Made by a program: the position numbers and the translations under genes
DNA from: Thermoplasmata archaeon
GTDB lineage: Archaea; Thermoplasmatota; Thermoplasmata; Thermoplasmatales; Thermoplasmataceae
Reading direction: 5' to 3'
Assembly: GCA_021792045.1 (NCBI GenBank)
Contig: JAJYVJ010000021.1
Coordinates: 1 to 18,501, forward strand
DNA: 18,501 bases
The notes under the pieces: generated by a model
Databases searched by the model: none
What the model was told of the DNA's origin: nothing
What the model saw: only the letters and a program-made list of their open reading frames with translations
In this document: piece after piece, positions 1,491 to 17,608 of the stretch
Position numbering within the stretch: the stretch's first letter is position 1
How the letters are laid out: each line of letters begins with the position of its first letter

Positions 1491-1931
1491 GTGAGTAATA
1501 ACCCAAAGATGATAATACCATTCCAACCACCGCTGGATTTACAGACGTTCCTCTTACTTACAAGGTTCGCCTCTTATCGTTTTCGCTCACAGAGTGCTGA
1601 GTTCATGAGGTTGAATGCGATCTTGACTGCTTCTTGTCGGTACCGTGAAACATACCCTGAGATATCACAGAGACGCACTGACTTGACTATATCTCGGACA
1701 GAGAAATGCGGCATTGGTAATTTTTATAAAAAAATGAAAATGCATGCTCAATTGAGCATCCTGAGCATAGTAATTGCTATGCTAATGTATATGGAATATA
1801 CTATAATAGGGGGTTTGGGGGCGTGGATGATTGGAAGTTCAGTCAAACCTCCTTTTGGTGTTTTTATCCGTGCATCAAGATTTCAGCCGGTGCATCTTTC
1901 CACGTGGAAAAGCTGTCCGGAGGAGTACTGA
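1491..1931 (+). CDS. Doubtful ORF, possibly only a 65-aa membrane peptide from 1734
   Basis: A GTG-started frame of 146 codons runs from an overlap with the preceding mini-frame to a TGATG overlap with the next gene. The first half (Arg/Ser/Thr-rich) does not read like a natural protein. From ATG 1734 the product has one strongly hydrophobic stretch (about residues 6-34 of that version, 'ILSIVIAMLMYMEYTIIGGLGAWMIG' region), so a short single-pass membrane protein from 1734 is as likely. A palindrome pair (1744-1782) lies inside this hydrophobic stretch. No family is recognised. It could also be leader DNA or decayed coding DNA ahead of the gene at 1931. Confidence 0.33.
   Translation: MSNNPKMIIPFQPPLDLQTFLLLTRFASYRFRSQSAEFMRLNAILTASCRYRETYPEISQRRTDLTISRTEKCGIGNFYKKMKMHAQLSILSIVIAMLMYMEYTIIGGLGAWMIGSSVKPPFGVFIRASRFQPVHLSTWKSCPEEY
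1744..1782. repeat. Perfect 16-bp palindrome plus second inverted repeat
   Basis: ATGCTCAATTGAGCAT (1744-1759) is a perfect palindrome. It is followed at once by GCATAG (1765-1770) and CTATGC (1777-1782), inverted around TAATTG. The word GAGCAT occurs twice (1754-1759 and 1764-1769) and its reverse complement ATGCTC once, so the sites are related. Operators bound by small dimeric regulators such as the AbrB-like protein look like this, but an RNA hairpin is also possible. Confidence 0.6.
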
Positions 1932-2920
1932 TGGTATTACGCAGGTTTTATTTTAAGGCAGAAGATTATCGCAAATATGCTGATTTCAGCCATTATGATG
2001 GTGAACTCGATACGACGGCAAGTGTGTACATTGCTCGGCCCGTGCTTGCAGCGTTTAACCGTTTCCGCCGCCTGACCACTGGTATTAGCATAGTGATGTC
2101 AAGTGGTGAGGAACTGGATCACTGGAATGGCAACGCCCTTACCCCGTTTGCAAGAGCCCTTGCGAATACGCTCGCAATAAAATACTGGTTACCTCGTGTG
2201 GGTCAGAATGTCTTTGAGAATGCCGTCTGGAACTCTCCTGGTATGGCGGGTGTATTTGATCTTCACGTGGATTCACTGTTTAGACGCACTGATCCCAGAT
2301 CAAGCCGCTCGAGTATCCGCATGGCCGCCACGACGAGAGGCATGTTCACGGCCCCATTCAAGGATCTGGAAATTTTTCCTCTTGGGTTTTCATACCCATA
2401 CTGCCTGACTCGCTATCTACTGGATGAAGGTGCCATCACAAGCACCATGGTTTTAGAGTTTAGGAGTGATGTTGCTCGCTGGGACGATGTGATTGACTCC
2501 ACATTGGAAAGAATACGTACGATCATAGCCACTGGAGGCGGCTACATTCCCCTGAACGAAAAAATAACCAGGCAACGTGAGTTTCAGAGCGAGGTGGACA
2601 TTTTTTACAATAGCAGTTTCGCTGCTGTTGCAAAGGTGCGCAGGGCAAAGTTTGATATTATAGACAAGCTCACGCAACCGATCGACAATTCCTACACAGC
2701 ATACTCTGGCTCTTCAGTTGGATTCGTAATCACGGTTGAAAAACCAACGCAACCAAAGCAAAAGGAAGACCTCGCCACGTTGATGAAAGAATTCCAATTC
2801 AGTGAGGCAAAAGTAGATGATCTCGGGCCCTTCAAGTATTTTATTCGCGAATGGGTAGATGAAAACAAAGGTTTACAGGTTTTGCATTTCCTAAAGGTCA
2901 TGCGGGCGAATATTTACTGA
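1931..2920 (+). CDS. Orphan protein of 329 aa, element-borne, function unknown
   Basis: I chose the ATG at 1931 because GGAGGAG (1919-1925) sits just upstream and because sequence ahead of it in the same frame does not look coding. The product has good archaeal codon use and mixed alpha/beta character, with no membrane segment or signal peptide. Visible landmarks are the aromatic-rich start (LRRFYFKAEDYRKYADFSHY), a central Arg/Ser-rich stretch around residues 115-130, and a C-terminal half with regular charged helices. I do not recognise a family. Its place between an AbrB-like regulator and a Cys-rich protein, in a chain of coupled genes, suggests a core gene of a plasmid or virus, perhaps structural. 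At its end the frame of the next gene is already open (see 2863-2979). Confidence 0.75.
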   Translation: MVLRRFYFKAEDYRKYADFSHYDGELDTTASVYIARPVLAAFNRFRRLTTGISIVMSSGEELDHWNGNALTPFARALANTLAIKYWLPRVGQNVFENAVWNSPGMAGVFDLHVDSLFRRTDPRSSRSSIRMAATTRGMFTAPFKDLEIFPLGFSYPYCLTRYLLDEGAITSTMVLEFRSDVARWDDVIDSTLERIRTIIATGGGYIPLNEKITRQREFQSEVDIFYNSSFAAVAKVRRAKFDIIDKLTQPIDNSYTAYSGSSVGFVITVEKPTQPKQKEDLATLMKEFQFSEAKVDDLGPFKYFIREWVDENKGLQVLHFLKVMRANIY

Positions 2921-2979
2921 CCGAGGATCAGCAGAAGCAGGTAAGGCGATACATCCAGAATCTCACGGAGGATGAACAA

Positions 2980-3300
2980 ATGCCCTATGAGTCGTGCCCG
3001 TTCTATGGCAGGTGTGAAAACCCCATATGCCCAATTGATCCACTCAGGGATAAAAGAATATGGTATTCCGATGAGGGGCTGTGCATCAATCCTGAGTACA
3101 AAGGCGATAAGGCAGTCATCAGCCAGAAGAAGATAGCCAAGAAGCATGCCCAGGGATATTTCACCCATGCCATGCTGAACCGCGATATCATCGTGAAGAA
3201 GGGCATCAGGGGCATTGATCCCGACATACCGGAGTCGTCAGTGCACGAAAGAGGGCAGTATGCCATCAATTCCCTGTATGCTCAGAGAGAGGAGGCATGA
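2980..3300 (+). CDS. Cysteine-rich N-terminal small protein, 106 aa
   Basis: The N-terminus carries four cysteines, C6, C12, C17 and C35 (CPFYGRCENPIC then GLC). The spacing suits binding a zinc ion or an iron-sulphur cluster. The rest is a basic/charged helical tail (KKIAKKHAQGYF, then VHERGQYAINSLYAQREEA). I know no family with this exact pattern. GGAGGA (2968-2973) precedes the ATG by 6 bases. The stop overlaps the next start as ATGA. The frame is open for about 38 codons before this ATG with coding-like content but no usable start codon, so the gene may once have been longer or fused to its neighbour. Confidence 0.72.
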   Translation: MPYESCPFYGRCENPICPIDPLRDKRIWYSDEGLCINPEYKGDKAVISQKKIAKKHAQGYFTHAMLNRDIIVKKGIRGIDPDIPESSVHERGQYAINSLYAQREEA

Positions 3301-3407
3301 TCGGCGCCCACCCAGAAATAACACAGGAGCAGAGGGAGAAAATGAGGTCCCAAGGGATGCAACGATCTGGAGCCCTGGAAAGATATCGGAATGGCATGAG
3401 AAAATGA
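3297..3407 (+). CDS. Small charged orphan protein, 36 aa
   Basis: The ATG is inside the previous stop codon (ATGA). The product is rich in Glu, Gln, Arg and Met (EITQEQREKMRSQGM) and likely helical, with a basic C-terminus. Codon use (GAG, CAG, AGG) matches the genes before it. No family is recognised. Short length limits certainty; coupling at both ends supports it. Confidence 0.45.
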   Translation: MIGAHPEITQEQREKMRSQGMQRSGALERYRNGMRK

Positions 3408-3526
3408 AGTCTTACTACTTCAGTTCGGGTCAAGAAAGAGGTTTTCCTACTTCATTTCAGGAGGTAAAAGGGTTGCAAGGCAGAATCATACAGCGTATGC
3501 CTTTCTTACCTGAAATACCAAACTAA
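3404..3526 (+). CDS. Small orphan protein, 40 aa, end of coupled gene chain
   Basis: It again starts inside the previous stop codon (ATGA). The 40-residue product begins MKSYYFSSGQERGF and ends MPFLPEIPN. No motif is recognised. It is the last member of the chain. Just past its stop another frame carries coding-like sequence without a start, so the end of this gene may itself be frameshifted. Confidence 0.36.
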   Translation: MKSYYFSSGQERGFPTSFQEVKGLQGRIIQRMPFLPEIPN

Positions 3527-3609: not shown

Positions 3610-3637
3610 CGCTGACCGGTACAGGGTGCCGGCCCCA

Positions 3638-4842: not shown

Positions 4843-4902
4843 TAATAGTTATCTCATCTGGAGGTAATAATGCTTCTCTAAATCTTGGTAACGAATATTT
4901 AT

Positions 4903-4919
4903 GGGAAAAACCTTAAAAG
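4903..4919 (+). promoter_or_regulatory. Promoter of the defence operon
   Basis: GGGAAAAACC followed by CTTAAAAG looks like a purine-rich BRE plus TATA-like box 20-27 bases before the ATG at 4939. This implies a leaderless mRNA for the first gene of the 4.9-13.0 kb operon. A second AT-rich box (ATATTTAT, 4895-4902) is farther upstream. Confidence 0.4.
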
Positions 4920-4938
4920 AATTAGGCATGCAACCTAC

Positions 4939-5106
4939 ATGAAATGTCCCAGGTGCAACTACGAGATATCATCTTCTCCGGTGAAGAAATGGAATTTCAA
5001 TGTTTACGAGGTAAGCAGGTTTTTTTGCAGTAACTGCAACAGCAAATTCAATTTGTATGAGGGGCCGGAAGGGAAGAGTTATACTATCCCAAAGAGGGAG
5101 GGATGA
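4939..5106 (+). CDS. Zinc-ribbon protein, 55 aa, first gene of defence operon
   Basis: The protein has two CxxC knuckles, CPRC at residues 3-6 and CSNC at about 31-34, the hallmark of a zinc ribbon. Between them lies a strand-rich segment, and the tail is basic. I chose ATG 4939 because the first knuckle directly follows it and a TATA-like box is about 20-27 bases upstream. An in-frame TTG at 4885 would add 18 unconvincing residues. The stop is 3 bases before the methylase start, so the two are co-transcribed and probably work together. Small zinc ribbons may bind nucleic acid or a large partner. Its function in a restriction-type system is unknown. Confidence 0.78.
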   Translation: MKCPRCNYEISSSPVKKWNFNVYEVSRFFCSNCNSKFNLYEGPEGKSYTIPKREG

Positions 5107-5109
5107 TGC

Positions 5110-8100
5110 GTGGCAGTTCAGAAATTCGGGAAGGAGTTCTGGATTGACCTGTTTAAAAGCATAGGTTATCCCGTTAATCTCCAGGAGTTCCCACTGAGTC
5201 TTATAAGGGAGCAGAAGATTTTACCGCCAAATACCAATCCATTGGGAGTATACCGGGTTTTTAGCAATGGATTAGTAGATGTAATAGTAACTGAAGTAAA
5301 GGAGGGTGAATTCTCAAGAGGAAGATGTGTCAACCTTGCGCGATCCTGGAAGAAAAACAATCTCCTGAGTCCCGTCATGATAATGACGAACTCCAAGGAC
5401 TCATACGTCAGCATACTTCCTGGAACTAGTTTCAACTCGGAGGCTAAAGTGCTTTATTTGTCTGATCAGCTCTACTATACCGATAAACTGGTTCTGGAGT
5501 CATTGAAAAATGACCCGGACAAGGTGGTTCTGTTAAAGCGCTATAACGAGGAATTCTTCCCATACCAGAAAGTGAGGGACGAATTCTTCACCGGTTACAG
5601 TAAAATGTTTCAGGAACTTCAGGAATCGTTGATATCTCATCTCGGGCTACAAACAAGATCGTTTTCGCAGAAGTTTCTTGGCAGGCTCATGTTTCTCTAT
5701 TTTCTCCAGAAAAAGGGCTGGCTGAAAAATGATAAACATTTTGTCGACTCCATTCAGGGGTATGAACAGCTCAGCGACATATACTATAACGGACTTAACA
5801 CAGGAAAATTGGAAGGTATACCATTTCTAAATGGCTCACTCTTTGACAGGGAAGACTATCTCAGCGATGAAAAAGAGGCTGAAATCTCAGAAATTCTCAA
5901 TGATATGTTCTTAAAAGCGAGAAAATTCTTCAATAACTATAATTTCACTGTTGATGAGACCTCTCCACTGGAGGTAGAGGTAAGCATTGATCCCGCACTT
6001 ATTGGTACTGTTTTCGAAAATCTGCTGCTTGAAAAGGAACGTGGAAAGAAGGGCACGTTTTATACGCCAAAGAATGAGACCTCATTCATTTGCAGGCGCG
6101 CCCTGGTAAAATACCTTGGTTTGGAAGATGGATTTTCTGCTGATGAGAAGGAGGTCAGTGATGGAATACAGACTCATCTGGAAACCCTGAGAAAGACAAA
6201 GAAAATAGATGAGATCAGGGAATTGAAAGACAAACTTCTGAAAGTAAAGGTTGTTGACCCGGCTGTTGGATCTGGAGGTTTTCTAGTGATAATGATGCAA
6301 GAGATAGTTTCAACCATCATAGAGTTAGATGCAATCGCAGGGTGGAAATCAGATTCCTATGAATACAAGAAGGAGGTTCACAGAAATCTCTTTGGCTTTG
6401 ATATTGAACCAGAAGCTGTTGAAATAGCGAGGCTCAGGCTTTGGCTTTCCATGATTATAGATCAGGAAGTACCCGTTCCTCTTCCAAATCTGGAATTCAA
6501 AATCGTAGACATACCGGACTCCTTGCAGCTTGAGAGTTTCCAGAAAAAGATCGAGTCTGAAATAGAGGAGGAAAGAGACCTTCTGGGTAAATTAATAGAA
6601 CAGTATTCAAATGAGCATGATCACGAAAACAAAGTCAACCTGAAACAGAGAATCGCTCTCCACACCAGAAATTTGTCAAAATACGGTCTCAATCCAAATG
6701 TAATTGAGAGTTACATGGTAGACCAAGCGGATATCGTGGTTATGAACCCTCCCTATGTGAGACAGGAATCCATTGATCCAGAAAGGAAGAAATATTACAT
6801 CGATACGTACAAGTTTGACAAGAAGTCTGACATTTATGTATACTTCTTCCAGAGGGCACTTCGGCTTCTAAAGCCTAATGGTGTTGTAACGGCCATAACA
6901 TCAGACAAATGGCTCGAAACCTCGTACGGAATAAAGCTTCAAGAACACCTTAAAAGTAGATTAATCTCAGTATACGGGCAGAGGAACAGGTCTTTTGAAG
7001 CTGACGTGAATACAGTAATAACTGTATACAGCAACGAGATGCAACAGATGCCAGTGAATTTTGTGTATCTCGAAAGCTATGGTTCAAGGGTAGTAAGGCG
7101 TAAAATTTCGTTGGAGAGACGGGATCTTAAACCCGGCAAATGGTTCTATCTTCGTGCGCCACAGATGTTCATGGAGAAGATATACCCGAAGCTGACACAC
7201 AGGCTTGGGGATTTCGCTGAAATAAAGTTTGGTATTAAAACAGGTGCAAACGATTTCTTCTACATTAAGGACGTTTCGGCATCGTATGAGGCGGATTATC
7301 TTGCAAATCCCAAGAAGTTTGAGGACTGGGTTGTCAGTGCAAAGAACGAGAAGGAGTTGAAGGAACAGGGCCTGATTTACATTGAGAATGAGGGGGGACA
7401 GAGATTCGTCATAAACCGATCTGATACAAAACCCCTTGTTAGAACAACGAAGGAGATAAAGACATACTCTGTAAAGGAGATGGGTAAATTATGTTTGTAT
7501 ACCAAGATTCCAGGTGAGATGACCAAGAAATATATTAAGTGGGGTCAAGAACAACGTATAAATATCAAGGGCCGAAAGGACCCAGTTATAGGTTACAACA
7601 ATGTGCCATCGGTATCTGGAAGAAGAAACTGGTATTCTTTGAATGATCTAGAACCTGCGAATATAATACTGCCGATGTACGTGATGGATAGATTCTTTGT
7701 CCCGAAATCAGACGATCCCGTAATTTGTGATCATACACTTTATACAATAACATCGAAAGTAAAAGGAATCGAGTCATACCTGAATTCCACAATGTTCTAC
7801 TTGACAATGGAACTATACCTGAGGAGATTAGGTGGAGGCGGAGGTGTAGGTGAGATAATGGTAGACGATTATGAACAGATGCCTGTTCCTGATTTGCAGA
7901 AAATAGATCTAACGACAATAAAAGTAATGTTTGAAAGATATGTAAAAAGATATTTTGAAGAAGTTAAGATGGAGGATAGAAGACAACTTGATGGTGAAAT
8001 ATTGAAATTACTATCTATAGAAAACTCCCTCCTTGATGAATTTTATAAAGAATTTATTGAACTAGTCGATGACCGCCTTATCAAGGCAGACAGAGGATTG

Positions 8101-8136
8101 AAATCGCTGGAGATAAACAATGACGAAGATAATTGA
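5110..8136 (+). CDS. Eco57I/PglX-like N6-adenine DNA methylase with specificity domain, 1008 aa
   Basis: This is a large class-I adenine-N6 methyltransferase. Key motifs are TFYTP at 316-320 (upstream helix seen in type I/IIG methylases), SAM-binding motif I DPAVGSGGF at 383-391, FGFDIEP at 428-434, and catalytic NPPY at 546-549 (adenine N6). The C-terminal part (about 690-1000) resembles a target-recognition domain, with FGIKTGANDFFY around 707-718 and the Gly-rich GGGGGVGEI before 'MPVPDL' near 925, as in type IIG/PglX enzymes. The first 290 residues do not show a clear PD-(D/E)xK nuclease; E62/K64 after D57 is only a weak hint. It likely marks host DNA. The GTG start has GGGAGG upstream (5097-5102), and the next gene overlaps by 17 bases. 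Cleavage is probably supplied by the next protein. Confidence 0.93.
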   Translation: MAVQKFGKEFWIDLFKSIGYPVNLQEFPLSLIREQKILPPNTNPLGVYRVFSNGLVDVIVTEVKEGEFSRGRCVNLARSWKKNNLLSPVMIMTNSKDSYVSILPGTSFNSEAKVLYLSDQLYYTDKLVLESLKNDPDKVVLLKRYNEEFFPYQKVRDEFFTGYSKMFQELQESLISHLGLQTRSFSQKFLGRLMFLYFLQKKGWLKNDKHFVDSIQGYEQLSDIYYNGLNTGKLEGIPFLNGSLFDREDYLSDEKEAEISEILNDMFLKARKFFNNYNFTVDETSPLEVEVSIDPALIGTVFENLLLEKERGKKGTFYTPKNETSFICRRALVKYLGLEDGFSADEKEVSDGIQTHLETLRKTKKIDEIRELKDKLLKVKVVDPAVGSGGFLVIMMQEIVSTIIELDAIAGWKSDSYEYKKEVHRNLFGFDIEPEAVEIARLRLWLSMIIDQEVPVPLPNLEFKIVDIPDSLQLESFQKKIESEIEEERDLLGKLIEQYSNEHDHENKVNLKQRIALHTRNLSKYGLNPNVIESYMVDQADIVVMNPPYVRQESIDPERKKYYIDTYKFDKKSDIYVYFFQRALRLLKPNGVVTAITSDKWLETSYGIKLQEHLKSRLISVYGQRNRSFEADVNTVITVYSNEMQQMPVNFVYLESYGSRVVRRKISLERRDLKPGKWFYLRAPQMFMEKIYPKLTHRLGDFAEIKFGIKTGANDFFYIKDVSASYEADYLANPKKFEDWVVSAKNEKELKEQGLIYIENEGGQRFVINRSDTKPLVRTTKEIKTYSVKEMGKLCLYTKIPGEMTKKYIKWGQEQRINIKGRKDPVIGYNNVPSVSGRRNWYSLNDLEPANIILPMYVMDRFFVPKSDDPVICDHTLYTITSKVKGIESYLNSTMFYLTMELYLRRLGGGGGVGEIMVDDYEQMPVPDLQKIDLTTIKVMFERYVKRYFEEVKMEDRRQLDGEILKLLSIENSLLDEFYKEFIELVDDRLIKADRGLKSLEINNDEDN

Positions 8137-11100
8137 TAATTCAAAAAAGTCACTTGCCTCAACTCTCAGAGATGAGATGAGACATGTAGACGAGCTTGCC
8201 ATAGCTTCTGCATATTTTAATCTCGAAGGATACAGGAACATCAGGGAAGCCCTGAAGGATAAACCTCTCAAGCTTTTACTGGGAAGGGAACCTTCCGAGA
8301 GCCTCAAATTTGAGGAAGAGGTAATAAAGAACCTTGAATCATTCGATGAGAAATTCAAGTCAGAACAGGGTGATGTTCTCTCCAATGAGGTAATGAAAAA
8401 CGAGGATGACGAAAGCTACTTCTCATCGCTACACGATGCGGATAAATATTTCAAGAGACCTGAAGTAGAAATAAGAAAGGTGAAAGGCAGATTCTTTCAC
8501 GGAAAGGCTTACATGGGTGCGCGTCCTTCATTTTTAGATATAGTAAACGGCTTCGCCACAGTGGGCTCCAGCAATTTTACTGGTGGCGGATTGGCGGGAA
8601 ACAGGGAGCTCAACATGCTTACAACCGACAGGGAAGGCGTAACTGAACTAATAAACTGGTTCTTGAGTCTGTGGAAAGAGGACAATTCCGTTGATTTCAA
8701 AAATGAGTTCCTTCAACTCCTTGAGAATTACGTCACTACACACAGCCCTTATGAAGTACTGGCAAAGGCCCTTTACGAAGTGTACCGCCCGCAAATCGAC
8801 GAGGCTAAAACAAATAACCTCATGAAAACGCTGTTCCCCCATCAGATACTTTCCACGATACAGGCATCAAGAATACTGAGTGCGTATAATGGAGTCATCA
8901 TAGCAGATTCTACCGGCTTGGGAAAGACCAGAGTAGGGATTAATCTGACTCAGATGGCCATAAACGAGGGAAAAAATCCACTTCTCATAGCTCCAAAGAG
9001 TGCCCTGGATACTACATGGAAAGACGAAATGGACAAGACACATGTACATATAGACTCTATTTCCTCTGAGTATCTTTCAAGCCATCCAGATCAGACTGTA
9101 AAGGAATACGCTGAGAAGGACTTCATAATCATAGATGAAGCCCATTATTTCAGGTCACAGTCATCGAACAGGTATGGTGCTTTGCGCGACCTGATGGCAA
9201 CTGGCGGCAAGCAAATTGTTCTGCTTACGGCAACACCAATAAACAATAGCCTTATGGATCTCTACGCACTTCTTTCTTTATACCTGAGGGACGATGCAAT
9301 ATCCGACGTAAGCCCATCCCTTAAAGGTTATTTCTCCATGCAGCAGAAGTTGTGGATCAACGAACAGCCGGTAGACATGGATCCAATCCTTCGCAGATTC
9401 GTTGTAAGAACTTCCAGGGAACTTGCAAAGGCCCTGAGCAAGAACCGTTTGAATTTCCCTGTAAGGAAACTGGACACTGATCCAAGAAACAGGTACAGTA
9501 CGAAGATAGACTATGAAAAGATAGGCGGTCTTTTCGATTCCATGAGTTTTGTGTATTACGATTATGCCATCGACAAGCTTGGTGATAAACTTAAACTTCC
9601 CGACGGAACGCCAATATCTGCCTCGGTTATGTATGAGAAGAGGGAATCACTCAAGTCGCTCGTAAAGGTGGTTATAAGGATAAATTTTTTCAAACGACTT
9701 GAGAGTAGCCTCCATGCATTTAAAGTAACGATGGAAACCCTTAGGAGATACATAGAAATGTCAAAGGACTACGCCAGCAAGGAAGGCTATTTTGTCCCTC
9801 CAAAAATGAAGGGCGATCTTACTGAAATGTATGACGAGGATGAGGAATGGAATCCACCAAATCCAGAAGAAATGTTCTCCGGCAAGTATAAAGAGCTTCT
9901 GGACAAGTGCAAACTTGACAAAGGAGAGAGAGACGAGTTCATTAAAAAATGCAACGAAGACATTGATGTGATTAAATCAATACTATCCGAACTTCCAAGC
10001 GAAGATGAGAAACTAAAGCAGACCATAGATAGAGTGAAAAGTATAGACCTTGATGGAAACAACGGTGTTATATTGTTCACGCAGTATTCAGCAACGGCTG
10101 AATACTTATATGAGAATTTAAGAAAAGTGGTTAAGGATGATATCATGCTCACCACTGGGTCTCAATGCAAGGATAGAACAGGTCATTCAAGGGATAAAAC
10201 AACCGTGATAAAGGATTTCATGAAGAATGGTGGTTACATTGTCAGCACCGATGTCCTAAGTGAAAGCCAGAACCTGCAGAATGCACAGTATGTTGTAGAT
10301 TATGATTTTCCGTGGAATCCTGTCGTTCTCATACAGAGGGCAGGAAGGATAGACCGGATTGGTTCGCCACACGAAGAGGTGTTCCTTATAAACATCCTGC
10401 CTGTGAATGGCAATGAGGAAGATCCAAAGAGCCTTTCCCATTTCCTAAGCGTAATGAGAAAATTGTACAAGCGGATTGATTTGATCAGCAATGTTATAGG
10501 AATAGATTCCACGACCCTTGGCGAAGATGCATCACCAAGAGACTTTGGGATACAGGAAGCCATTGCGAGAAATGACCCAAAGGTCCTTGATGTGTTAATG
10601 GAAAAAGTAGAGCAGTTTACCAAAGACCCCATAGAAACACTTGCAGCGATCATCAACAATAAAGGGGAGAAATGGCTGCAGGATCTGCCCATAGGGATTG
10701 GCGCATATAAGCATTCAAACAGGAACGGCCTCTTCATACTATTTAGGGATGGTGGAAGTTATTACTGGATATTGAAATTCTTTGATGGAGGGGGGGAAAC
10801 TATACAGAACCCCAATGAAATCATAAACCTCCTGTTGGATGGTGATTATGACAACAAGGGTGAGATAATCGATTACAAGGAGATGATGACACAGTTTAAG
10901 GATCTAAAATCGTGGTTGAAAAACAAAATTGAAAGCGAAAGAATGGTAAGGGATATTCAACAAGGCAGGAAAATTGGTACAACGAAGCAGGAAAGAGAAA
11001 TTTACGAAGCGTTGCAGAAGTCCGGCCCAGAAGGAATTAGACTGTCAGCAATATTCAACAGTGCAAGGGCAAGGCAGACAGTGGTTACAACCCTATACAA

Positions 11101-11254
11101 GACGATGAAAGACGGTAATCTGCTTGATAAGGCTCGTGAAGTGCTGAAATCATACGATTCGTCCGGTAATAGTATACCCAATGATAGGGGAGTTGAAACA
11201 GACCTAAAGAGAGTTTGCTGGTGCTGGATAAAGAAGTCGGGACTGGAAAAGTAA
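8120..11254 (+). CDS. PLD-nuclease / SNF2 helicase fusion, 1044 aa
   Basis: An N-terminal phospholipase-D domain (about 1-190) shows HGK at 127-129 and GSSNFT at 149-154, the HxK...GSxN signature of PLD nucleases. One HxK copy means it would work as a dimer. A full SNF2-family helicase follows: Walker A STGLGKT (264-270), DEAH (339-342), LTATPINN (369-376), motif IV ILFTQYS (651-657), TDVLSESQNLQ (710-720) and RAGRIDRIG (740-748). The C-terminus (about 955-1010) looks like a winged helix. It likely translocates along DNA and cuts it when methylation is missing. The ATG lies inside the methylase gene (17-base overlap, with GGAG upstream), so translation is coupled. DISARM also joins a helicase, a PLD protein and a methylase, but there the PLD is separate and a DUF1998 gene is present; none is seen here. 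Confidence 0.92.
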   Translation: MTKIIDNSKKSLASTLRDEMRHVDELAIASAYFNLEGYRNIREALKDKPLKLLLGREPSESLKFEEEVIKNLESFDEKFKSEQGDVLSNEVMKNEDDESYFSSLHDADKYFKRPEVEIRKVKGRFFHGKAYMGARPSFLDIVNGFATVGSSNFTGGGLAGNRELNMLTTDREGVTELINWFLSLWKEDNSVDFKNEFLQLLENYVTTHSPYEVLAKALYEVYRPQIDEAKTNNLMKTLFPHQILSTIQASRILSAYNGVIIADSTGLGKTRVGINLTQMAINEGKNPLLIAPKSALDTTWKDEMDKTHVHIDSISSEYLSSHPDQTVKEYAEKDFIIIDEAHYFRSQSSNRYGALRDLMATGGKQIVLLTATPINNSLMDLYALLSLYLRDDAISDVSPSLKGYFSMQQKLWINEQPVDMDPILRRFVVRTSRELAKALSKNRLNFPVRKLDTDPRNRYSTKIDYEKIGGLFDSMSFVYYDYAIDKLGDKLKLPDGTPISASVMYEKRESLKSLVKVVIRINFFKRLESSLHAFKVTMETLRRYIEMSKDYASKEGYFVPPKMKGDLTEMYDEDEEWNPPNPEEMFSGKYKELLDKCKLDKGERDEFIKKCNEDIDVIKSILSELPSEDEKLKQTIDRVKSIDLDGNNGVILFTQYSATAEYLYENLRKVVKDDIMLTTGSQCKDRTGHSRDKTTVIKDFMKNGGYIVSTDVLSESQNLQNAQYVVDYDFPWNPVVLIQRAGRIDRIGSPHEEVFLINILPVNGNEEDPKSLSHFLSVMRKLYKRIDLISNVIGIDSTTLGEDASPRDFGIQEAIARNDPKVLDVLMEKVEQFTKDPIETLAAIINNKGEKWLQDLPIGIGAYKHSNRNGLFILFRDGGSYYWILKFFDGGGETIQNPNEIINLLLDGDYDNKGEIIDYKEMMTQFKDLKSWLKNKIESERMVRDIQQGRKIGTTKQEREIYEALQKSGPEGIRLSAIFNSARARQTVVTTLYKTMKDGNLLDKAREVLKSYDSSGNSIPNDRGVETDLKRVCWCWIKKSGLEK

Positions 11255-11255
11255 C

Positions 11256-11402
11256 ATGAGCAAAATAAGAGAAAAAGTGAATGATTTAGGAGTTGTCGAT
11301 ATCTGGACATTGCTATGTAAAAATTCAAGAATTCAAAAATATCCGATAATGTTCAAGGGGAGTATTTGTTATGTGTTTGCCTGTGCATGGTACTTCAGAT
11401 AA
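11256..11402 (+). CDS. Small orphan protein, 48 aa, after the helicase
   Basis: An ATG one base after the helicase stop opens 48 codons. The first half is charged/helical (MSKIREKVNDLGVVDIWTLL) and the second half holds three cysteines and a hydrophobic run (GSICYVFACAWYF). No family is recognised. It could be a real small operon gene, or the start of a gene cut off later, since the region up to 11417 holds nothing else. The position argues for translation; the odd C-terminus argues against an intact protein. Confidence 0.42.
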   Translation: MSKIREKVNDLGVVDIWTLLCKNSRIQKYPIMFKGSICYVFACAWYFR

Positions 11403-11417
11403 GGTGATGATTGCGGG

Positions 11418-12212
11418 TTGTCGTTAAAGGTTGTTAATGCAGAGACCGACTTGGGAAAGGTTGGTAGAGGCGGATCAAATGCACGCTTCGTCCTGTGTGA
11501 CGATGGTGTAGAATATATAGTCAAGTATATGAAGAACCAAGGACAAAGGTTGTTCATTAATGAGTTGGTAGGGGCTCTTTCAGGAAATCTGATGGATTGT
11601 GCTGTTCCTGAATTCAGTTTGGTTCATTTTGATCAAGAATTTATCAACGCTTCACAGGACTTAAAAAATCAAGATATTAAAGGGGGAGTCTTCCCCGGCG
11701 TTTCGAGGATTAAAGATGCCGTTGACCTATGTAGCAATCAATCTATTCCTTCAGATTTGGCGAACATGCACAAACTCCCATACATCGTAATATTTGATAA
11801 CTGGGTCATAAACAAAGACAGGAATAATTGTGGAAATCTCATTATTTCATTTTCAAATGGGTTGAAGAATTATTACCAGATAGACAACGGTCACATCCTC
11901 GGGGGACCACAATGGAGCGTTGACTCGCTTGTGAGAATAGGAAGTGGCTCTGAGTTTCAACCTCTCTTTGCATCTATAGCAGATAACATTAAGGAAGGTA
12001 GCTTTGTTTCTAAAGCTTTGGTGTCGTTGGAAGCGGTGGATGATAATTCTATACAGGACTTAGTTTCAGGGATTCCAGCGGAATGGGCGGATGAAGCAGA
12101 GGTTATCAAAAAACAGATTAATATTTTTCTAAGGCAAAGGAGAAATATGGTACGAAGTATTATCATGGACAACAAGAGCAAGTTTAGGTATTGTGAATGG
12201 GGGGGGTTATAA
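11418..12212 (+). CDS. HipA-like Ser/Thr kinase (short form), 264 aa
   Basis: The sequence follows the kinase core of HipA. A Gly/Ser-rich loop (GRGGSNARF) comes first, then EYIVKYMKN with the ATP-binding lysine (about K36), an NEL helix (48-50), the catalytic loop INKDRNNCGN (131-140, like DRHxxN of HipA) and the metal-binding IDNGH (155-159). It lacks the N-terminal HipA domain of the 440-residue E. coli toxin. It matches the short kinases usually encoded next to DUF3037 proteins, as here. HipA kinases phosphorylate translation factors such as glutamyl-tRNA synthetase. The target here is unknown. The only in-frame start is TTG 11418, with AAGGTGAT (11401-11408) upstream. The next gene begins right after the stop (no gap). 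Confidence 0.82.
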   Translation: MSLKVVNAETDLGKVGRGGSNARFVLCDDGVEYIVKYMKNQGQRLFINELVGALSGNLMDCAVPEFSLVHFDQEFINASQDLKNQDIKGGVFPGVSRIKDAVDLCSNQSIPSDLANMHKLPYIVIFDNWVINKDRNNCGNLIISFSNGLKNYYQIDNGHILGGPQWSVDSLVRIGSGSEFQPLFASIADNIKEGSFVSKALVSLEAVDDNSIQDLVSGIPAEWADEAEVIKKQINIFLRQRRNMVRSIIMDNKSKFRYCEWGGL

Positions 12213-12770
12213 ATGAGTTTATGCGAATACGTTGTGGTCAGGTATGTTCAGGACGAGATAAGAAAAGAGCCGGTCAACATAGGGATAATATTAAGAGATT
12301 CTAATTCCGGTTCAATATCTACGAAATTCTACAAGAGTATGAACCAGTTGCTAATCAGGAAGCCCGACGCTAACGTGGATCTGATAGGTGAATACATAGA
12401 GTCGATTCAGGCAATAAAGTCGATTGGCCAAGAATTCCTTAAAGATATATCAGAAAACTTCAGCCATCAAATTCAGTTTTCCGAGGTGATGGGAACAAAA
12501 TGCTCAAGGGCGGAAGATCAGGTGAAAATACTATACAAAAGGTTCGTAAGTATCGAAGAAATACCCCAAGTGAAAATCATTAGCAAATTAAAATCCATGG
12601 AGTCTAATAAATCTAACAACAAATCTTTTCACCGTATATTTAAGATGGGAATTGATCAGTCTCCTTCGAAAATAGCCAAAAACAAACAATCTCAGAAATT
12701 ATTAAAAGACACCAAGAATATAAGAGCGGTGGTCCGCTATTATGATGATTTGAAAATAGATCAGAGGTGA
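12213..12770 (+). CDS. DUF3037 family protein, partner of HipA-like kinase, 185 aa
   Basis: The N-terminus EYVVVRYVQDEIRKEPVNIG followed by IILRD is the DUF3037 signature (a strand, 'RYV.D..R.E.VNIG..L'). The remaining residues are charged helices, with many lysines near the end. In known genomes the family lies beside short HipA-like kinase genes, so it is probably a partner: inhibitor, substrate or sensor. That role is inferred. The ATG follows the kinase stop directly, so the two are translated together. The length fits a minimal family member. It is soluble with no membrane segment. Confidence 0.8.
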   Translation: MSLCEYVVVRYVQDEIRKEPVNIGIILRDSNSGSISTKFYKSMNQLLIRKPDANVDLIGEYIESIQAIKSIGQEFLKDISENFSHQIQFSEVMGTKCSRAEDQVKILYKRFVSIEEIPQVKIISKLKSMESNKSNNKSFHRIFKMGIDQSPSKIAKNKQSQKLLKDTKNIRAVVRYYDDLKIDQR

Positions 12771-12803
12771 AAGAATATCCCATCCGTTCAAAAAAAAGAG
12801 GAT

Positions 12804-12995
12804 TTGCTATCAAAACTAGAAAAAAGAACATTAAAGCAAAATGAAGCAGCTGAACTTAGAACAATTCTGGAAAAAGAGAGAAAGGAAGCTGCAACTTTAG
12901 GTGATATAGTGGCTGTCATAATAATCGGAATACTCATTGCCGCTGTCATTTCTCTCTTGACGGATTTGATATCAGAAAATGACGATCAAGATTAG
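12804..12995 (+). CDS. Small coiled-coil / membrane protein, 63 aa
   Basis: The first half is a charged helix with heptad character (LEKRTLKQNEAAELRTILEK). The second half is a single membrane helix (about residues 34-53, VAVIIIGILIAAVISLLTDL), ending with an acidic tail (SENDDQD). It lies in the same frame as the DUF3037 gene, 33 bases past its stop. TTG 12804 is the only normal start codon, with AGAGG close in front, so the true start is unsure. Membrane-anchored small proteins at the end of defence operons are often effectors or anchors; that is a guess here. A T-run terminator follows at 13002. Confidence 0.6.
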   Translation: MLSKLEKRTLKQNEAAELRTILEKERKEAATLGDIVAVIIIGILIAAVISLLTDLISENDDQD

Positions 12996-13001
12996 GGAGA
13001 G

Positions 13002-13007
13002 TTTTTT
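13002..13007 (+). terminator. T6 terminator after the defence operon
   Basis: A T6 run lies 6 bases after the membrane-protein stop and before a new promoter, which fits U-tract termination in archaea and separates two transcription units. Confidence 0.4.
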
Positions 13008-13021
13008 GGACAACTTAATAT

Positions 13022-13049: not shown

Positions 13050-14330
13050 ATGAAAATCGATGAAGTATCCATTGAAAATTTCAAGGGAATAGATTCTCTA
13101 AGATTTGAACCAAGACTTCTAAATGTTATAGTGGGAAGAAATAATACAGGAAAAACTTCAATTCTAGAAGCACTTGCAATTGCCATGGATCCAGATTTTA
13201 TAAAGAGAAATTATCCTGAATTTCCATCTTCCATAATTAACTACTTGGTTAACACTAGCAGAATTTCAGTTTCTTTCTCCAATAAAACAAAGCATACTAA
13301 TGACGTATTAATCGAGAAGGTAGATGCCCAAGTTATTGTTGATAAAATGGCAAATTCTGTTTTGGAAAACATTAAGAGTTTTCAAGCAGAATTAGGAAAG
13401 CCATCGAGTTCCTCCAGATACCTATCGAATAGATTCGTATTATTATCGGACTTAGCAAGAGATGATATTGCAAAATTTCAAGAATCTATCCAAACAGTTC
13501 TTGCTGATCAGTTGACCCCTGAGATCGTGAAGAGACTAAGTCAAGAATGTGTCGCAATAAAAGTCGGTAATGAAGAAAATCTCTTCTTTGGAGAAGAATT
13601 TAGGTCTTATCAGGAACGCTTGACATTAGCAGTTTTTGAAAACTTATATAAGAAGAGATACGGGGCAGAAAAGGACATATTAAGACGTCTAGTTCTAGGT
13701 TTACGATATAGAAGTGCACCAATCTTAGCGACCGATAAAACTAATGAACGAAAGCGTGGTCCAGAAATCGTGTATGTTAAAGAGCCAATGCAATATCTCA
13801 AAAGGACTCTAGGCAAGGAACAAGGTATACAAGAGCTTGCCCTAAAGATAGAAGAGATACTTAAAAAGGATAAAATAGTTCCAAACCTAATAAGATTCGA
13901 TTTTACTGAGGTTGTGTTTGAAACTGTTCAAGGTAGAAAGTCTGTTAAATTTAATAGGATGGGCGAAGGTTTCCAAACCCTTGTAGCCGTTTTATCAATT
14001 TTAAGATCTATCGAGAATCCCCAGACAATTTTTCTGATAGAGGAACCAGAAGTGCATATGCACCCTGGATATGTAAGTGAGTTAGTTAAATATTTAGCAC
14101 AGATATCCGCTTCACTAAACGTTCAACTTTTCATAACAACTCACAGTTATGATCTAATACAATCTTTGATTGAGGGAGATTATTCCAGCGATTTGAAGGA
14201 ATATCTCAGAGAAAATCTCTTATTGCTAAGATTGACAAAGACTGATGATTTAGTAATAGGAGAGAGTCTTTTTTACGAAGAAGCACAGAGTAATATTTCC
14301 AATCTTCAGTTGGACTTAAGGGGAATATGA
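13050..14330 (+). CDS. OLD/RecF-like AAA (ABC-type) ATPase, 426 aa
   Basis: This is a DNA-repair-type ABC ATPase of the AAA_15/AAA_21 group. It starts with MKIDEVSIENFKGI, has Walker A GRNNTGKT (29-36), a signature-like region NRMGEGFQTL (302-311), Walker B IFLIEEPEVHMHP (327-339) and the H-loop TTHSYD (363-368). It lacks the long coiled coil of SMC proteins, and its 426 residues fit the ATPase half of an OLD nuclease without the Toprim domain. That domain is encoded by the next gene with no gap. Such ATPases sense invading DNA or phage proteins and switch on their nuclease partner (split OLD, Gabija- or PARIS-like logic). The gene has its own TATA box and is more AT-rich than the upstream operon, suggesting separate acquisition. 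Confidence 0.9.
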   Translation: MKIDEVSIENFKGIDSLRFEPRLLNVIVGRNNTGKTSILEALAIAMDPDFIKRNYPEFPSSIINYLVNTSRISVSFSNKTKHTNDVLIEKVDAQVIVDKMANSVLENIKSFQAELGKPSSSSRYLSNRFVLLSDLARDDIAKFQESIQTVLADQLTPEIVKRLSQECVAIKVGNEENLFFGEEFRSYQERLTLAVFENLYKKRYGAEKDILRRLVLGLRYRSAPILATDKTNERKRGPEIVYVKEPMQYLKRTLGKEQGIQELALKIEEILKKDKIVPNLIRFDFTEVVFETVQGRKSVKFNRMGEGFQTLVAVLSILRSIENPQTIFLIEEPEVHMHPGYVSELVKYLAQISASLNVQLFITTHSYDLIQSLIEGDYSSDLKEYLRENLLLLRLTKTDDLVIGESLFYEEAQSNISNLQLDLRGI

Positions 14331-14939
14331 TTGAAAGCACTTATATTGGTGGAGGGTCCACATGATAGAGTTTTTCTAAGTGAAGTTATAAATAGAACAG
14401 CCCCCTCAAACATTTCCACATTTTTTTATCCTAATAGCGGCACAAAACCTGAAAAGAAGGATCAAGAAACTGTTTTATTGAGAAAATTTTCTGGAAATTC
14501 TCATCCATATAACTTACTTATAAAAGAAGAGGGGGGACATTATTTCGTGATAAATTTATTTGTTAATTTAGCAGTTAATTTTTTAATGAGATATCCTGAT
14601 ATTTCTCTAACTGTATTGTTCGATCATGATAGGAGAAATCCGGAAGAAGAGATAAAGAAGATTAAAAACGACCTAAAAGCGAAAACCTCGGGAAAAATAG
14701 GATTTGAACCTATTTCTCCAAAGAGATTAATCACTGATGGGCTCCACAGGAATGACTTCTCCTTGTTCCGGTATAATGGGAGCAAGATACGGAAAGTTAC
14801 CTCGTTTTCCTTTGTCGGTTTTGATGTGTCATTAGAATACGCGGTCTCAAAATTTTGTGATAAGCCTGTAAAGGAAATAAATCAAGAAGACACCATGTCT
14901 TTTGCTTCGAGAGTGAACTTTAAAGATTTGATACCTTAA
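14331..14939 (+). CDS. Toprim-domain partner of the OLD-like ATPase, 202 aa
   Basis: The N-terminus ALILVEGPHDRVFL holds the Toprim glutamate (E8 in VEG). VLFDHDRRN (about 95-103) carries the DxD metal-binding motif. These mark a Toprim catalytic domain as found in OLD nucleases, topoisomerases and AriB/DUF4435 or DUF3226 proteins. The rest is poorly conserved, with a basic middle. It starts with TTG immediately after the ATPase stop (no gap), so the pair is translated together and most likely forms one ATPase-nuclease complex. I cannot tell whether it belongs to the DUF4435 (PARIS-like) or another branch. The product could cut DNA or RNA, including tRNA as reported for PARIS; that is speculative here. 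Confidence 0.78.
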   Translation: MKALILVEGPHDRVFLSEVINRTAPSNISTFFYPNSGTKPEKKDQETVLLRKFSGNSHPYNLLIKEEGGHYFVINLFVNLAVNFLMRYPDISLTVLFDHDRRNPEEEIKKIKNDLKAKTSGKIGFEPISPKRLITDGLHRNDFSLFRYNGSKIRKVTSFSFVGFDVSLEYAVSKFCDKPVKEINQEDTMSFASRVNFKDLIP

Positions 14940-15787: not shown

Positions 15788-17608
15788 ATGGACAATCTGA
15801 CTAATTTGCAGGACCTCTTTAAAAGCTCCGTTTTCAGGGTTCCAGATTATCAGCGCGGCTATGCGTGGAAAACCCAAAATGTCGATGATCTGCTCGAAGA
15901 TTTAGAGACTTTGGAAGTTGGGGCAAAGCACTATACTGGCACGTTGGTGCTTAAAAAAGGAGAAGAACTCCAGGGGCTTGGCCATGTAATAAAACAATAC
16001 GATCTTGTCGATGGGCAGCAGAGGCTTACCACCCTTGTAATTCTTTTAAAAAATATTGTAAGAATCATGGAATCCAAAAAGAAGAGTGAGGAAGATGATA
16101 TTGTAATTAAGAATCTGACGCAGTCTTACCTATGGGAAAAGGGAAAGGGAGGAGAAATCTTTAAGCTTAAACTAGAAAAAGAGAATGATCTTTTTTTCGT
16201 TAACAGTATTTTGAACGGTCGCGATATGAAGGAGTTAAATCTCTCTCACGGCAACTTAGTAAGTGCAGACAAGAGAATACACAATTACTTGATCAAAAAA
16301 GCCTCGGATGGGACCTTTCTGGATAATCTTGTGAACAAAATAACAAATTCACTAATGTTTACAGTCTATGTTATCACTGATGATTACGAAGTTGGGGTAA
16401 TTTTTGAAACAATGAATGACAGGGGAATACAACTTTCAGAGCTTGAAAAAGTTAAGAATTTTCTACTTTATTTGACGGGTAGAGTGGCAGGGGCAGGTGA
16501 ACCGAGGGGTGATACCTCTAATTACATAAATACCTCATGGTCACACATCTTGAGAAACTTATATTTGCCCGGAAATAAAAATATGTCAGAAGACCAACTA
16601 TTGAGGGTTAGTGCCATCTTAATGTTTTATGATGAGTTGGAAAGTATAAGAGAGAATGGAAAAGTAATAGAAAGTGTAAATACACAATTGGGAAGCCAGT
16701 ATCGCTTGATAAAGAAACATCTTACAGAACTACTTAAGCTTGACAAGGAGAAATGCCATGAAGAAATTAGGGAAGTAGTAAATCATCTTGAAAAACTTTC
16801 TGAAAAGTACCGTGATATCAAGGTTCCAGAGGATCCTAACTCTTTTTCTGACATCACTGATAAGGTATTAAAGGATAGAATCAAGAATGCTTGTATCCGT
16901 TATGATAGAATGGGGAGTCTTGCGTCATTTTTGCCACTGTTGCTGGCGATTTACTATAAGTATTCTTCACAGCCAGATGTTATGGCAGATTTATTTGAAT
17001 TAATGGAGAAAGGAATTTTTATCATTTATGGACTTTCTGACCGTAGGTCGAATGCTGCTGAAAGCACACTTTATACCATGGCCTATGAAGTTTACAACGA
17101 TAAACTCAGATCAGATGGCGTATCCAGTCAGGTTAGAAATTTAGTAAAAGATTATTCTGACGAATTTAGGAAAGCGCTTCAAGAAGATAAGGGCTTTTAT
17201 GAGTGGGGCTGGCTCAAGTATTTTCTCTATGAGTATGAAATTTGGCGCTGTAAAAAAATTAACAAAGGGAGCCCATCTTTTACATGGCAACAGCTTAAAA
17301 GGAAAGACTTAGAAGAGACTGTAGAGCACATATTACCCAAAACTTATCCTGAAAGAGTACCTTATTGGACAAGCAGATTCTCACGGGAGGACCATAAAAG
17401 AAACCTTGATAGGATTGGTAACCTCACCCTCACAGACCAGAATCTATATCTTTCCAACAAACCTTTCGACGATAAGAAAGAACTTTACAAGAACTCCAGC
17501 TGGCAGATTGAGCGGGATCTGATTAACTTTAAAGAGTGGAATGAGGAGTCTATTAATAAAAGAGAAGAAGAATTAGTGAAATTTGCACAAGATAGGTGGA
17601 AAATATAG
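15788..17608 (+). CDS. GmrSD-type restriction endonuclease (DUF262 + DUF1524/HNH in one chain), 606 aa
   Basis: The N-terminal DUF262 (ParB-like NTPase) domain shows FRVPDYQRGYAWK (16-28), DGQQRLTTL (75-83) and FETMNDRGIQLSELEKVKNF (206-225). The C-terminal DUF1524 His-Me/HNH nuclease has VEHILPK (512-518) and NLDRIGNLTL (539-548) with the N-rich end NLYLSNKPFDDKK. These are the signatures of GmrS and GmrD, the type IV enzyme that cuts modified phage DNA (such as glucosylated hydroxymethylcytosine) using NTP. In E. coli GmrS and GmrD are separate; here both lie in one 606-residue chain, as in many other homologues. All motif residues I look for are present, so it should be active. It is a single-gene unit with its own promoter. 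Confidence 0.92.
   Translation: MDNLTNLQDLFKSSVFRVPDYQRGYAWKTQNVDDLLEDLETLEVGAKHYTGTLVLKKGEELQGLGHVIKQYDLVDGQQRLTTLVILLKNIVRIMESKKKSEEDDIVIKNLTQSYLWEKGKGGEIFKLKLEKENDLFFVNSILNGRDMKELNLSHGNLVSADKRIHNYLIKKASDGTFLDNLVNKITNSLMFTVYVITDDYEVGVIFETMNDRGIQLSELEKVKNFLLYLTGRVAGAGEPRGDTSNYINTSWSHILRNLYLPGNKNMSEDQLLRVSAILMFYDELESIRENGKVIESVNTQLGSQYRLIKKHLTELLKLDKEKCHEEIREVVNHLEKLSEKYRDIKVPEDPNSFSDITDKVLKDRIKNACIRYDRMGSLASFLPLLLAIYYKYSSQPDVMADLFELMEKGIFIIYGLSDRRSNAAESTLYTMAYEVYNDKLRSDGVSSQVRNLVKDYSDEFRKALQEDKGFYEWGWLKYFLYEYEIWRCKKINKGSPSFTWQQLKRKDLEETVEHILPKTYPERVPYWTSRFSREDHKRNLDRIGNLTLTDQNLYLSNKPFDDKKELYKNSSWQIERDLINFKEWNEESINKREEELVKFAQDRWKI

Follow-up and report, generated by a model that had tools for sequence, protein, structure and literature searches.

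A predicted archaeal restriction core followed by a HipAD-type kinase cassette that is likely optional

A HipA-type kinase encoded beside a DUF3037 protein is known as a stand-alone defence module (PMC12548924, PMC13092281; the statements used here come from portions of these papers). In Retron-Sda1, deletion of the kinase abolished defence, and deletion of the DUF3037 gene was toxic, an effect that did not require the reverse transcriptase (PMC12548924). In DS-6, later renamed HipAD, a catalytic mutation of the kinase (DS-6A) abolished defence (PMC13092281). Portions of a third paper (PMC12839542) propose backup effectors of nuclease type, among them HEPN, OLD/TOPRIM and GmrSD proteins, beside BREX and BREX-related systems; HipA does not occur in its main text. 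The DNA analysed here, called the window, is a stretch of 18,501 nucleotides from a Thermoplasmata archaeon (contig JAJYVJ010000021.1 of GenBank assembly GCA_021792045.1), in which such a kinase pair lies behind a likely restriction core.

Open reading frame (ORF) calls and Pfam matches gave the following order on one strand: zinc ribbon, methylase, PLD-SNF2 helicase, HipA_2 kinase, DUF3037 protein and membrane peptide. The reading preferred here, at a probability of roughly 0.55, is that a methylase-helicase core carries an appended HipAD-type cassette of kinase, DUF3037 protein and membrane peptide, likely an optional growth-arrest backup. Judged from the sequence, the cassette is likely optional, shares its junction with the helicase gene in two loci and is likely co-transcribed with the core in the window. 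The cluster agrees with the general proposal of backup effectors, which is not itself new; here a kinase takes the position of the effector.

The kinase cassette and its relative in G001

The one informative relative was found in genome G001, a metagenome-assembled genome (MAG; LSA5.bin89). Its contig C4 bears a methylase-helicase pair that is intact and followed by other genes, another helicase lies at the edge of a contig (locus L002), and contig C30 (locus L041) carries the trio of kinase, DUF3037 and membrane-peptide genes. Positions 11144-13015 of the window correspond to positions 1750-3630 of L041 at 81.6% identity, and this shared block begins inside the helicase gene. Over the 3' tail of the helicase gene the alignment covers 104 bases, 75 of them identical (score 53, versus at most 30 in 300 shuffles); in L041 this stretch does not stay open as the end of a helicase frame and looks like a decayed end of the window's helicase. 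The leader between the helicase and kinase genes (11255-11417, + strand) was conserved as well (101 of 125 aligned bases identical; local score 104, versus at most 30 in 300 shuffles), yet it is not open as a reading frame in L041 and is probably non-coding.

The ratio of non-synonymous to synonymous substitution rates (dN/dS) between the two loci was 0.16 for the kinase, 0.18 for DUF3037 and 0.12 for the membrane peptide, with dS values of 0.53-0.69; all three genes are under purifying selection between these loci. The simplest reading of the alignment is that the trio stood behind such a helicase in a common ancestor and outlived loss of the helicase in one locus. Alternatively, a block that included the end of the helicase may have been transferred. 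The comparison of the helicase-kinase junction rests on two loci, which is a small sample.

The original prediction, made from the letters of the window, had described seven genes in one direction with gaps of mostly 0-33 bases. Coordinates and family matches confirmed six named genes in one direction. The seventh, a frame of 48 residues (11256-11402) and the sole notable one between helicase and kinase, was rejected: all three frames of the aligned L041 stretch are interrupted, and no PADLOC or NCBIfam match was obtained. The short gaps were found at the other junctions; that between helicase and kinase measures 163 bp.

The kinase (11418-12212, + strand, start codon TTG) corresponds to the HipA of HipAD-type pairs; it matched Pfam HipA_2 at 3.2e-15 and PADLOC PDC-M66A at 1.4e-8. 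Residues K36, D134, R135 and D156 were invariant in nine sequences, and K36, D134 and D156 are presumably the catalytic residues. A profile of nine rows matched the solved HipA-family toxin 4pu3 at 0.0013; a search of the PDB with the single kinase sequence gave weak or unrelated matches. The DUF3037 protein, a predicted antitoxin of 185 residues (12213-12770, + strand), matched Pfam at 3.6e-10 and PDC-M66B at 4.5e-9, and gave no match against plasmids. Like the window pair, a pair in Escherichia phage PhiR5_1 (L061:4950-6523) matches PDC-M66A/B; it is annotated as HipA toxin and HipD antitoxin and lies beside cI and lambda-type early genes. The window kinase is 22% identical to this phage HipA, and the phage HipD has 275 residues. 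Copies of the phage pair at 95% identity or more were present in 283 of 5426 E. coli genomes (282 at 99% or more), all of them chromosomal. Because the C-terminal part of HipD/DS-6B beyond DUF3037 was not seen in the window protein, the window pair is classed from its sequence as a HipAD-type variant, not HipAD proper. The second archaeon with HipA_2 (G508) had no DUF3037 match; the three ORFs scanned around its kinase encode an FkbM methyltransferase, a protein with no family over the cut-off and a cupredoxin.

The single-pass membrane peptide (12777-12995, + strand) has a hydropathy of 3.11 over 19 residues and is 87% identical in L041. Its frame is that of DUF3037 and is open after the DUF3037 TGA codon (12768-12995 without a stop), in both loci. 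At the end of the DUF3037 gene lies a Shine-Dalgarno sequence, GAGGTGA (12764-12770, + strand), 6 nt before an isoleucine codon. The identical 7-base match and the spacing of 6 nt recur in L041, the codon being ATC at 12777 in the window and ATA in L041. For the TTG codon at 12804, a 4-base match was present at a distance of 2 nt only, and L041 had none. The simplest reading of these signals is a start at the non-ATG isoleucine codon, which would give 72 residues from ATC 12777, versus 63 from TTG 12804. Readthrough of the stop codon, which would yield a DUF3037-membrane fusion, is a possible alternative. Among 77 genomes of the family, the peptide was found in G001 only, apart from one marginal match (E 0.0036) inside a frame of 395 residues.

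The predicted restriction core and the expression signals

The adenine-specific DNA methylase (5110-8136, + strand, 1008 residues, start codon GTG) is of the Eco57I/PglX/MmeI type, and a fold search with its predicted structure returned the PglX/BrxX type. The BrxX alignment begins at residue 154, and residues 1-150 were barely covered by fold matches; this N-terminal domain (5110-5560) was predicted with high confidence. The PLD-SNF2 helicase (8120-11254, + strand, 1044 residues), a predicted nuclease-translocase, matched SNF2 at 2.7e-17 and PLDc_2 at 1e-8 in Pfam and the PADLOC model C3a139 (HKD+Snf2) at 6.5e-47. Its residues H127, K129, S151, E163, K269 and D339-H342 were invariant in 36 sequences, and the N6-methylase motifs and the nuclease motif are both kept in the core proteins. 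The two proteins likely form a restriction-modification core of a known kind.

Of the 17 relative loci with enough sequence to judge, 16 have the methylase immediately before the helicase, and among relatives of the core that carry a name, a Thermoplasmata MAG is the nearest (88% identity in the helicase). Among viral contigs there was no relative of the helicase and none of the kinase. In Thermogymnomonas acidicola the methylase-helicase pair (L015:5868-12114) matched only in many pieces with shifting frames, which may reflect decay or sequencing error.

The zinc-ribbon protein (4939-5106, + strand, 55 residues) gave zinc-ribbon matches that were all below the Pfam cut-offs. Homologues on the same strand directly upstream of the methylase were present in four relative loci (L014, L044, L045 and L046); none was found in L001. 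Its alternative start is TTG at 4885. A BRE/TATA-like site (B recognition element and TATA box; 4905-4919, + strand), a candidate promoter, agrees with 10 of 11 consensus positions and is among the three best of 8,386 positions scanned; a sigma-70 promoter scan, unsuited to an archaeon, was not used for promoters. This site, and the lack of a Shine-Dalgarno match before ATG 4939, would fit a leaderless first gene; the site favours ATG 4939 over TTG 4885 as the putative start.

Shine-Dalgarno matches of 5, 4 and 7 bases precede the methylase, helicase and kinase genes, and that of the kinase (AGGTGAT, 11402-11408, + strand, spacing 9) fits a putative downstream cistron. A strong internal promoter or terminator near 11255-11417, named in the original prediction as an argument against it, was not seen: no site in 11150-11418 exceeded 8 of 11 BRE/TATA positions, 11255-11417 contains no run of five or more T, and the scan of the + strand for terminator-like sites listed nothing there. 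Therefore, given the 7-base match before the kinase, a single shared transcript stays plausible. The window had no inverted repeats in the kinase leader that could serve as an operator. Behind the trio, a T6 tract (13002-13007, + strand) is a candidate archaeal terminator; L041 also has a T6 tract, at 3616, and the tract in the window sits near the edge of the shared block, where homology ends at 13015. Taken together, the signals fit one putative unit from about 4930 to 13007, consensus matches being no proof.

Weighing of the explanations

In the preferred reading, the methylase would mark self DNA, and the PLD-SNF2 protein would translocate on and cut unmarked DNA. Transcription would begin at the 4905 promoter and yield a single transcript ending at the T tract at 13002. 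The DUF3037 protein would restrain a toxic kinase, and the membrane peptide may tether or regulate both. When a cell is infected, or when the core fails or is inhibited, the kinase would be released, phosphorylate a host protein and stop growth. The two-stage response of cutting first and then halting growth is put forward as a hypothesis.

A number of results weigh against such a tie between cassette and core, above all those of a genome survey. HipA_2 was found in one of 19 helicase-bearing genomes, with no match in the assemblies of the other 18, and DUF3037 was found in the same single genome. The 19 consisted of 12 genomes that contain 13 of the 16 helicase loci (one with HipA_2) and seven more, namely those of L004 and L006 and five further genomes (none with HipA_2); L016 lay outside the survey. 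Many of the surveyed genomes are draft assemblies, and absence in any single case is no proof; the control genome, Bacteroides ihuae, was positive in each family search. In the class to which G001 belongs, one of 250 genomes has HipA_2; in the phylum of G002 it is one of 349 and, for the kinase, in the family one of 77. DUF3037 was found in two of the 250 class genomes, one of them under the cut-off, and the helicase model matched 19 of the 250 at E 1e-50 or better (eight of the 19 above 700 bits). One genome (G200) contains the start of a helicase 92% identical to that of the window over 418 residues, where the contig ends, and has neither HipA_2 nor DUF3037. Among the relative loci, 17 extend at least 1.3 kb past the helicase, and tblastn detected neither the kinase nor DUF3037 in any of them. 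The original prediction had named related genomes with the methylase and helicase but mostly without the kinase pair as an argument against it, and this is what the survey showed. Because the pair had no match in the assemblies of 18 of the 19 genomes and its kinase stands on a separate contig from the intact core in the nineteenth, the genes do not form a fixed compound system. The claim of a compound defence operon thus survives for gene content and order, with a shared transcript plausible, and fails for a fixed system. Protein clusters of 23 contigs for the kinase and three for the helicase hint at kinase copies that occur without this helicase.

Further points on the same side concern the loci and proteins themselves. 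In G001 the trio is intact where no intact helicase adjoins. The L041 tail aligned to five other helicase ends with scores of 16-20, which is the shuffle level; what the alignment shows is a shared block carrying the end of the window's helicase, and a former full gene in L041 is not proven. A Shine-Dalgarno match is absent before the L041 kinase and, for the DUF3037 gene of the window, is limited to 4 bases at a distance of 16 nt; the 163-bp gap could contain a promoter of the kinase's own. The AlphaFold model of the kinase, built from four sequences, had a mean predicted local distance difference test (pLDDT) of 34.3, too poor for a fold search, and the DUF3037 protein matched residues 1-87 of the 281 of PDC-M66B, the first third of the model only. 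Four bacterial HipA_2 loci were inspected; the two with DUF3037 adjoin phage genes, and DUF3037 was not seen at the other two, one of which was judged by annotation.

It is a serious possibility, at less than even odds, that the two parts are unrelated neighbours, an autonomous HipAD-type toxin-antitoxin unit that shares a defence island with a restriction pair but is not tied to it in function. Besides the absence of kinase and DUF3037 matches in nearly all helicase-bearing genomes (18 of 19), this would account for a trio that is retained where no intact helicase adjoins it and has its own conserved leader and T-tract end; the next genes of the window, moreover, match further defence families (PARIS-like OLD ATPase with TOPRIM-like protein, and GmrSD). 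It does not readily explain the junction from helicase end to kinase, which is common to two loci whose trio genes differ by the dS values given above, or the strong kinase Shine-Dalgarno match in a gap with no good promoter or terminator match. That junction and the compact same-strand order are also what speaks for the earlier reading, an obligate compound system needing all six proteins. This is now very improbable, with helicases lacking the kinase in 18 of 19 genomes and with the intact methylase-helicase pair and the trio of G001 on different contigs.

A guard or addiction role, a special form that overlaps the appended-cassette reading, is unlikely. The toxin pair would here prevent loss of the restriction genes or sense anti-restriction proteins that mimic DNA. 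The model for it is PARIS, which senses the anti-restriction DNA mimic Ocr (PMC12839542, in part). The methylase shares its fold with BrxX, a protein whose structure was solved in complex with Ocr, and PARIS-like genes lie directly downstream; persistence of the trio in G001 with no intact helicase beside it would be unexpected for a strict guard. Just as speculative is a swap-in slot behind the helicase of archaeal PLD-SNF2 pairs, filled here by a three-part HipAD variant. The peptide, made from the isoleucine start or by readthrough, would tie the antitoxin to the membrane, and the growth-stopping kinase would be freed when infection reaches the envelope or the core is lost.

Neighbouring genes and comparison with known systems

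Other genes at the helicase end were considered with neighbouring ORFs of at least 70 residues called mechanically. In four of 17 relative loci the next gene on the helicase's strand lies no more than 100 bp past the helicase; the other 13 have no such gene. In L046 (10766-11740), from the class of G001, a toxin-type HEPN gene (Swt1-like, PDC-M34B) overlaps the helicase end by about 35 bases; in L007 a DUF553 transglutaminase-like protein follows, and in L013 and L014 a gene without clear family, with an HNH protein next in L014. An OLD ATPase with a TOPRIM domain stands between methylase and helicase in L003 (7989-10004). Five plasmid relatives, all at 26-28% identity, were inspected for genes separating methylase from helicase: three contain accessory genes by annotation (in one DUF262, in another a nucleotidyltransferase with SLATT, in the third an AbiEii type), a fourth has two hypothetical proteins there and the fifth none.

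Directly behind the trio, an AAA_15/OLD-type ATPase and a TOPRIM-like protein (13050-14939) probably form a PARIS-like or PDC-M38-like pair; the ATPase matched PADLOC AriA (PARIS) at 3.3e-28 and PDC-M38A at 2.1e-27, and the TOPRIM-like protein matched PDC-M38B at 0.0069. A protein without family match separates the latter from a GmrSD (DUF262/HNH) protein (15788-17608; PADLOC HEC-06, 1e-63), a further defence gene of the island. To the left, at 1823-3526, lie ORFs of 365, 106 and 103 residues without any Pfam family. The sole match of an Rfam scan of the window was a tRNA, tRNA-Glu (53-128), at the window edge, with defence genes within the 5 kb after it; tRNA genes are common integration sites.

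The locus adds an archaeal, Thermoplasmata-related case of a HipA_2/DUF3037 toxin-antitoxin pair, and both of the loci found retain a third gene. It is also one case in which the position of a backup effector next to a restriction core is taken by a kinase, not a nuclease. Close packing of genes on one strand of a defence island can pass for one system where comparison indicates an optional cassette.

With BREX and DISARM the core shares the PglX/BrxX methylase fold and DrmD-like helicase matches. DrmB of DISARM is a DUF1998 protein. As predicted, there was no Pfam match to PglZ or BrxC, which sets the locus apart from BREX, or to DUF1998, which sets it apart from DISARM, in the fifteen ORFs of the window scanned, shorter ORFs not being scanned. 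Toward Hma, the helicase matched HmaA at 4.1e-20, and the methylase was judged on the best 25 of 54 PADLOC rows. Type-2 BREX-related systems likewise combine an N6-methylase with an HKD(PLD)-SNF2 helicase, the proposed nuclease effector there (PMC12839542, in part); unlike them, the scanned ORFs of the window contained no DUF499 ATPase and no DUF3780, and the methylase had no DUF1156 match. The archaeal Eco57I-methylase and PLD-SNF2 pair of L044 agrees in gene order, overlap, upstream zinc ribbon and 72-73% identity, but has no kinase trio, and an opposite-strand gene comes next. The kinase pair resembles HipAD/DS-6/PDC-M66 in both families, their order, adjacency and catalytic residues and in its PADLOC matches to PDC-M66A and PDC-M66B, and differs in a shorter DUF3037 protein, a membrane peptide as third gene, an archaeal host and a restriction core ahead of it.

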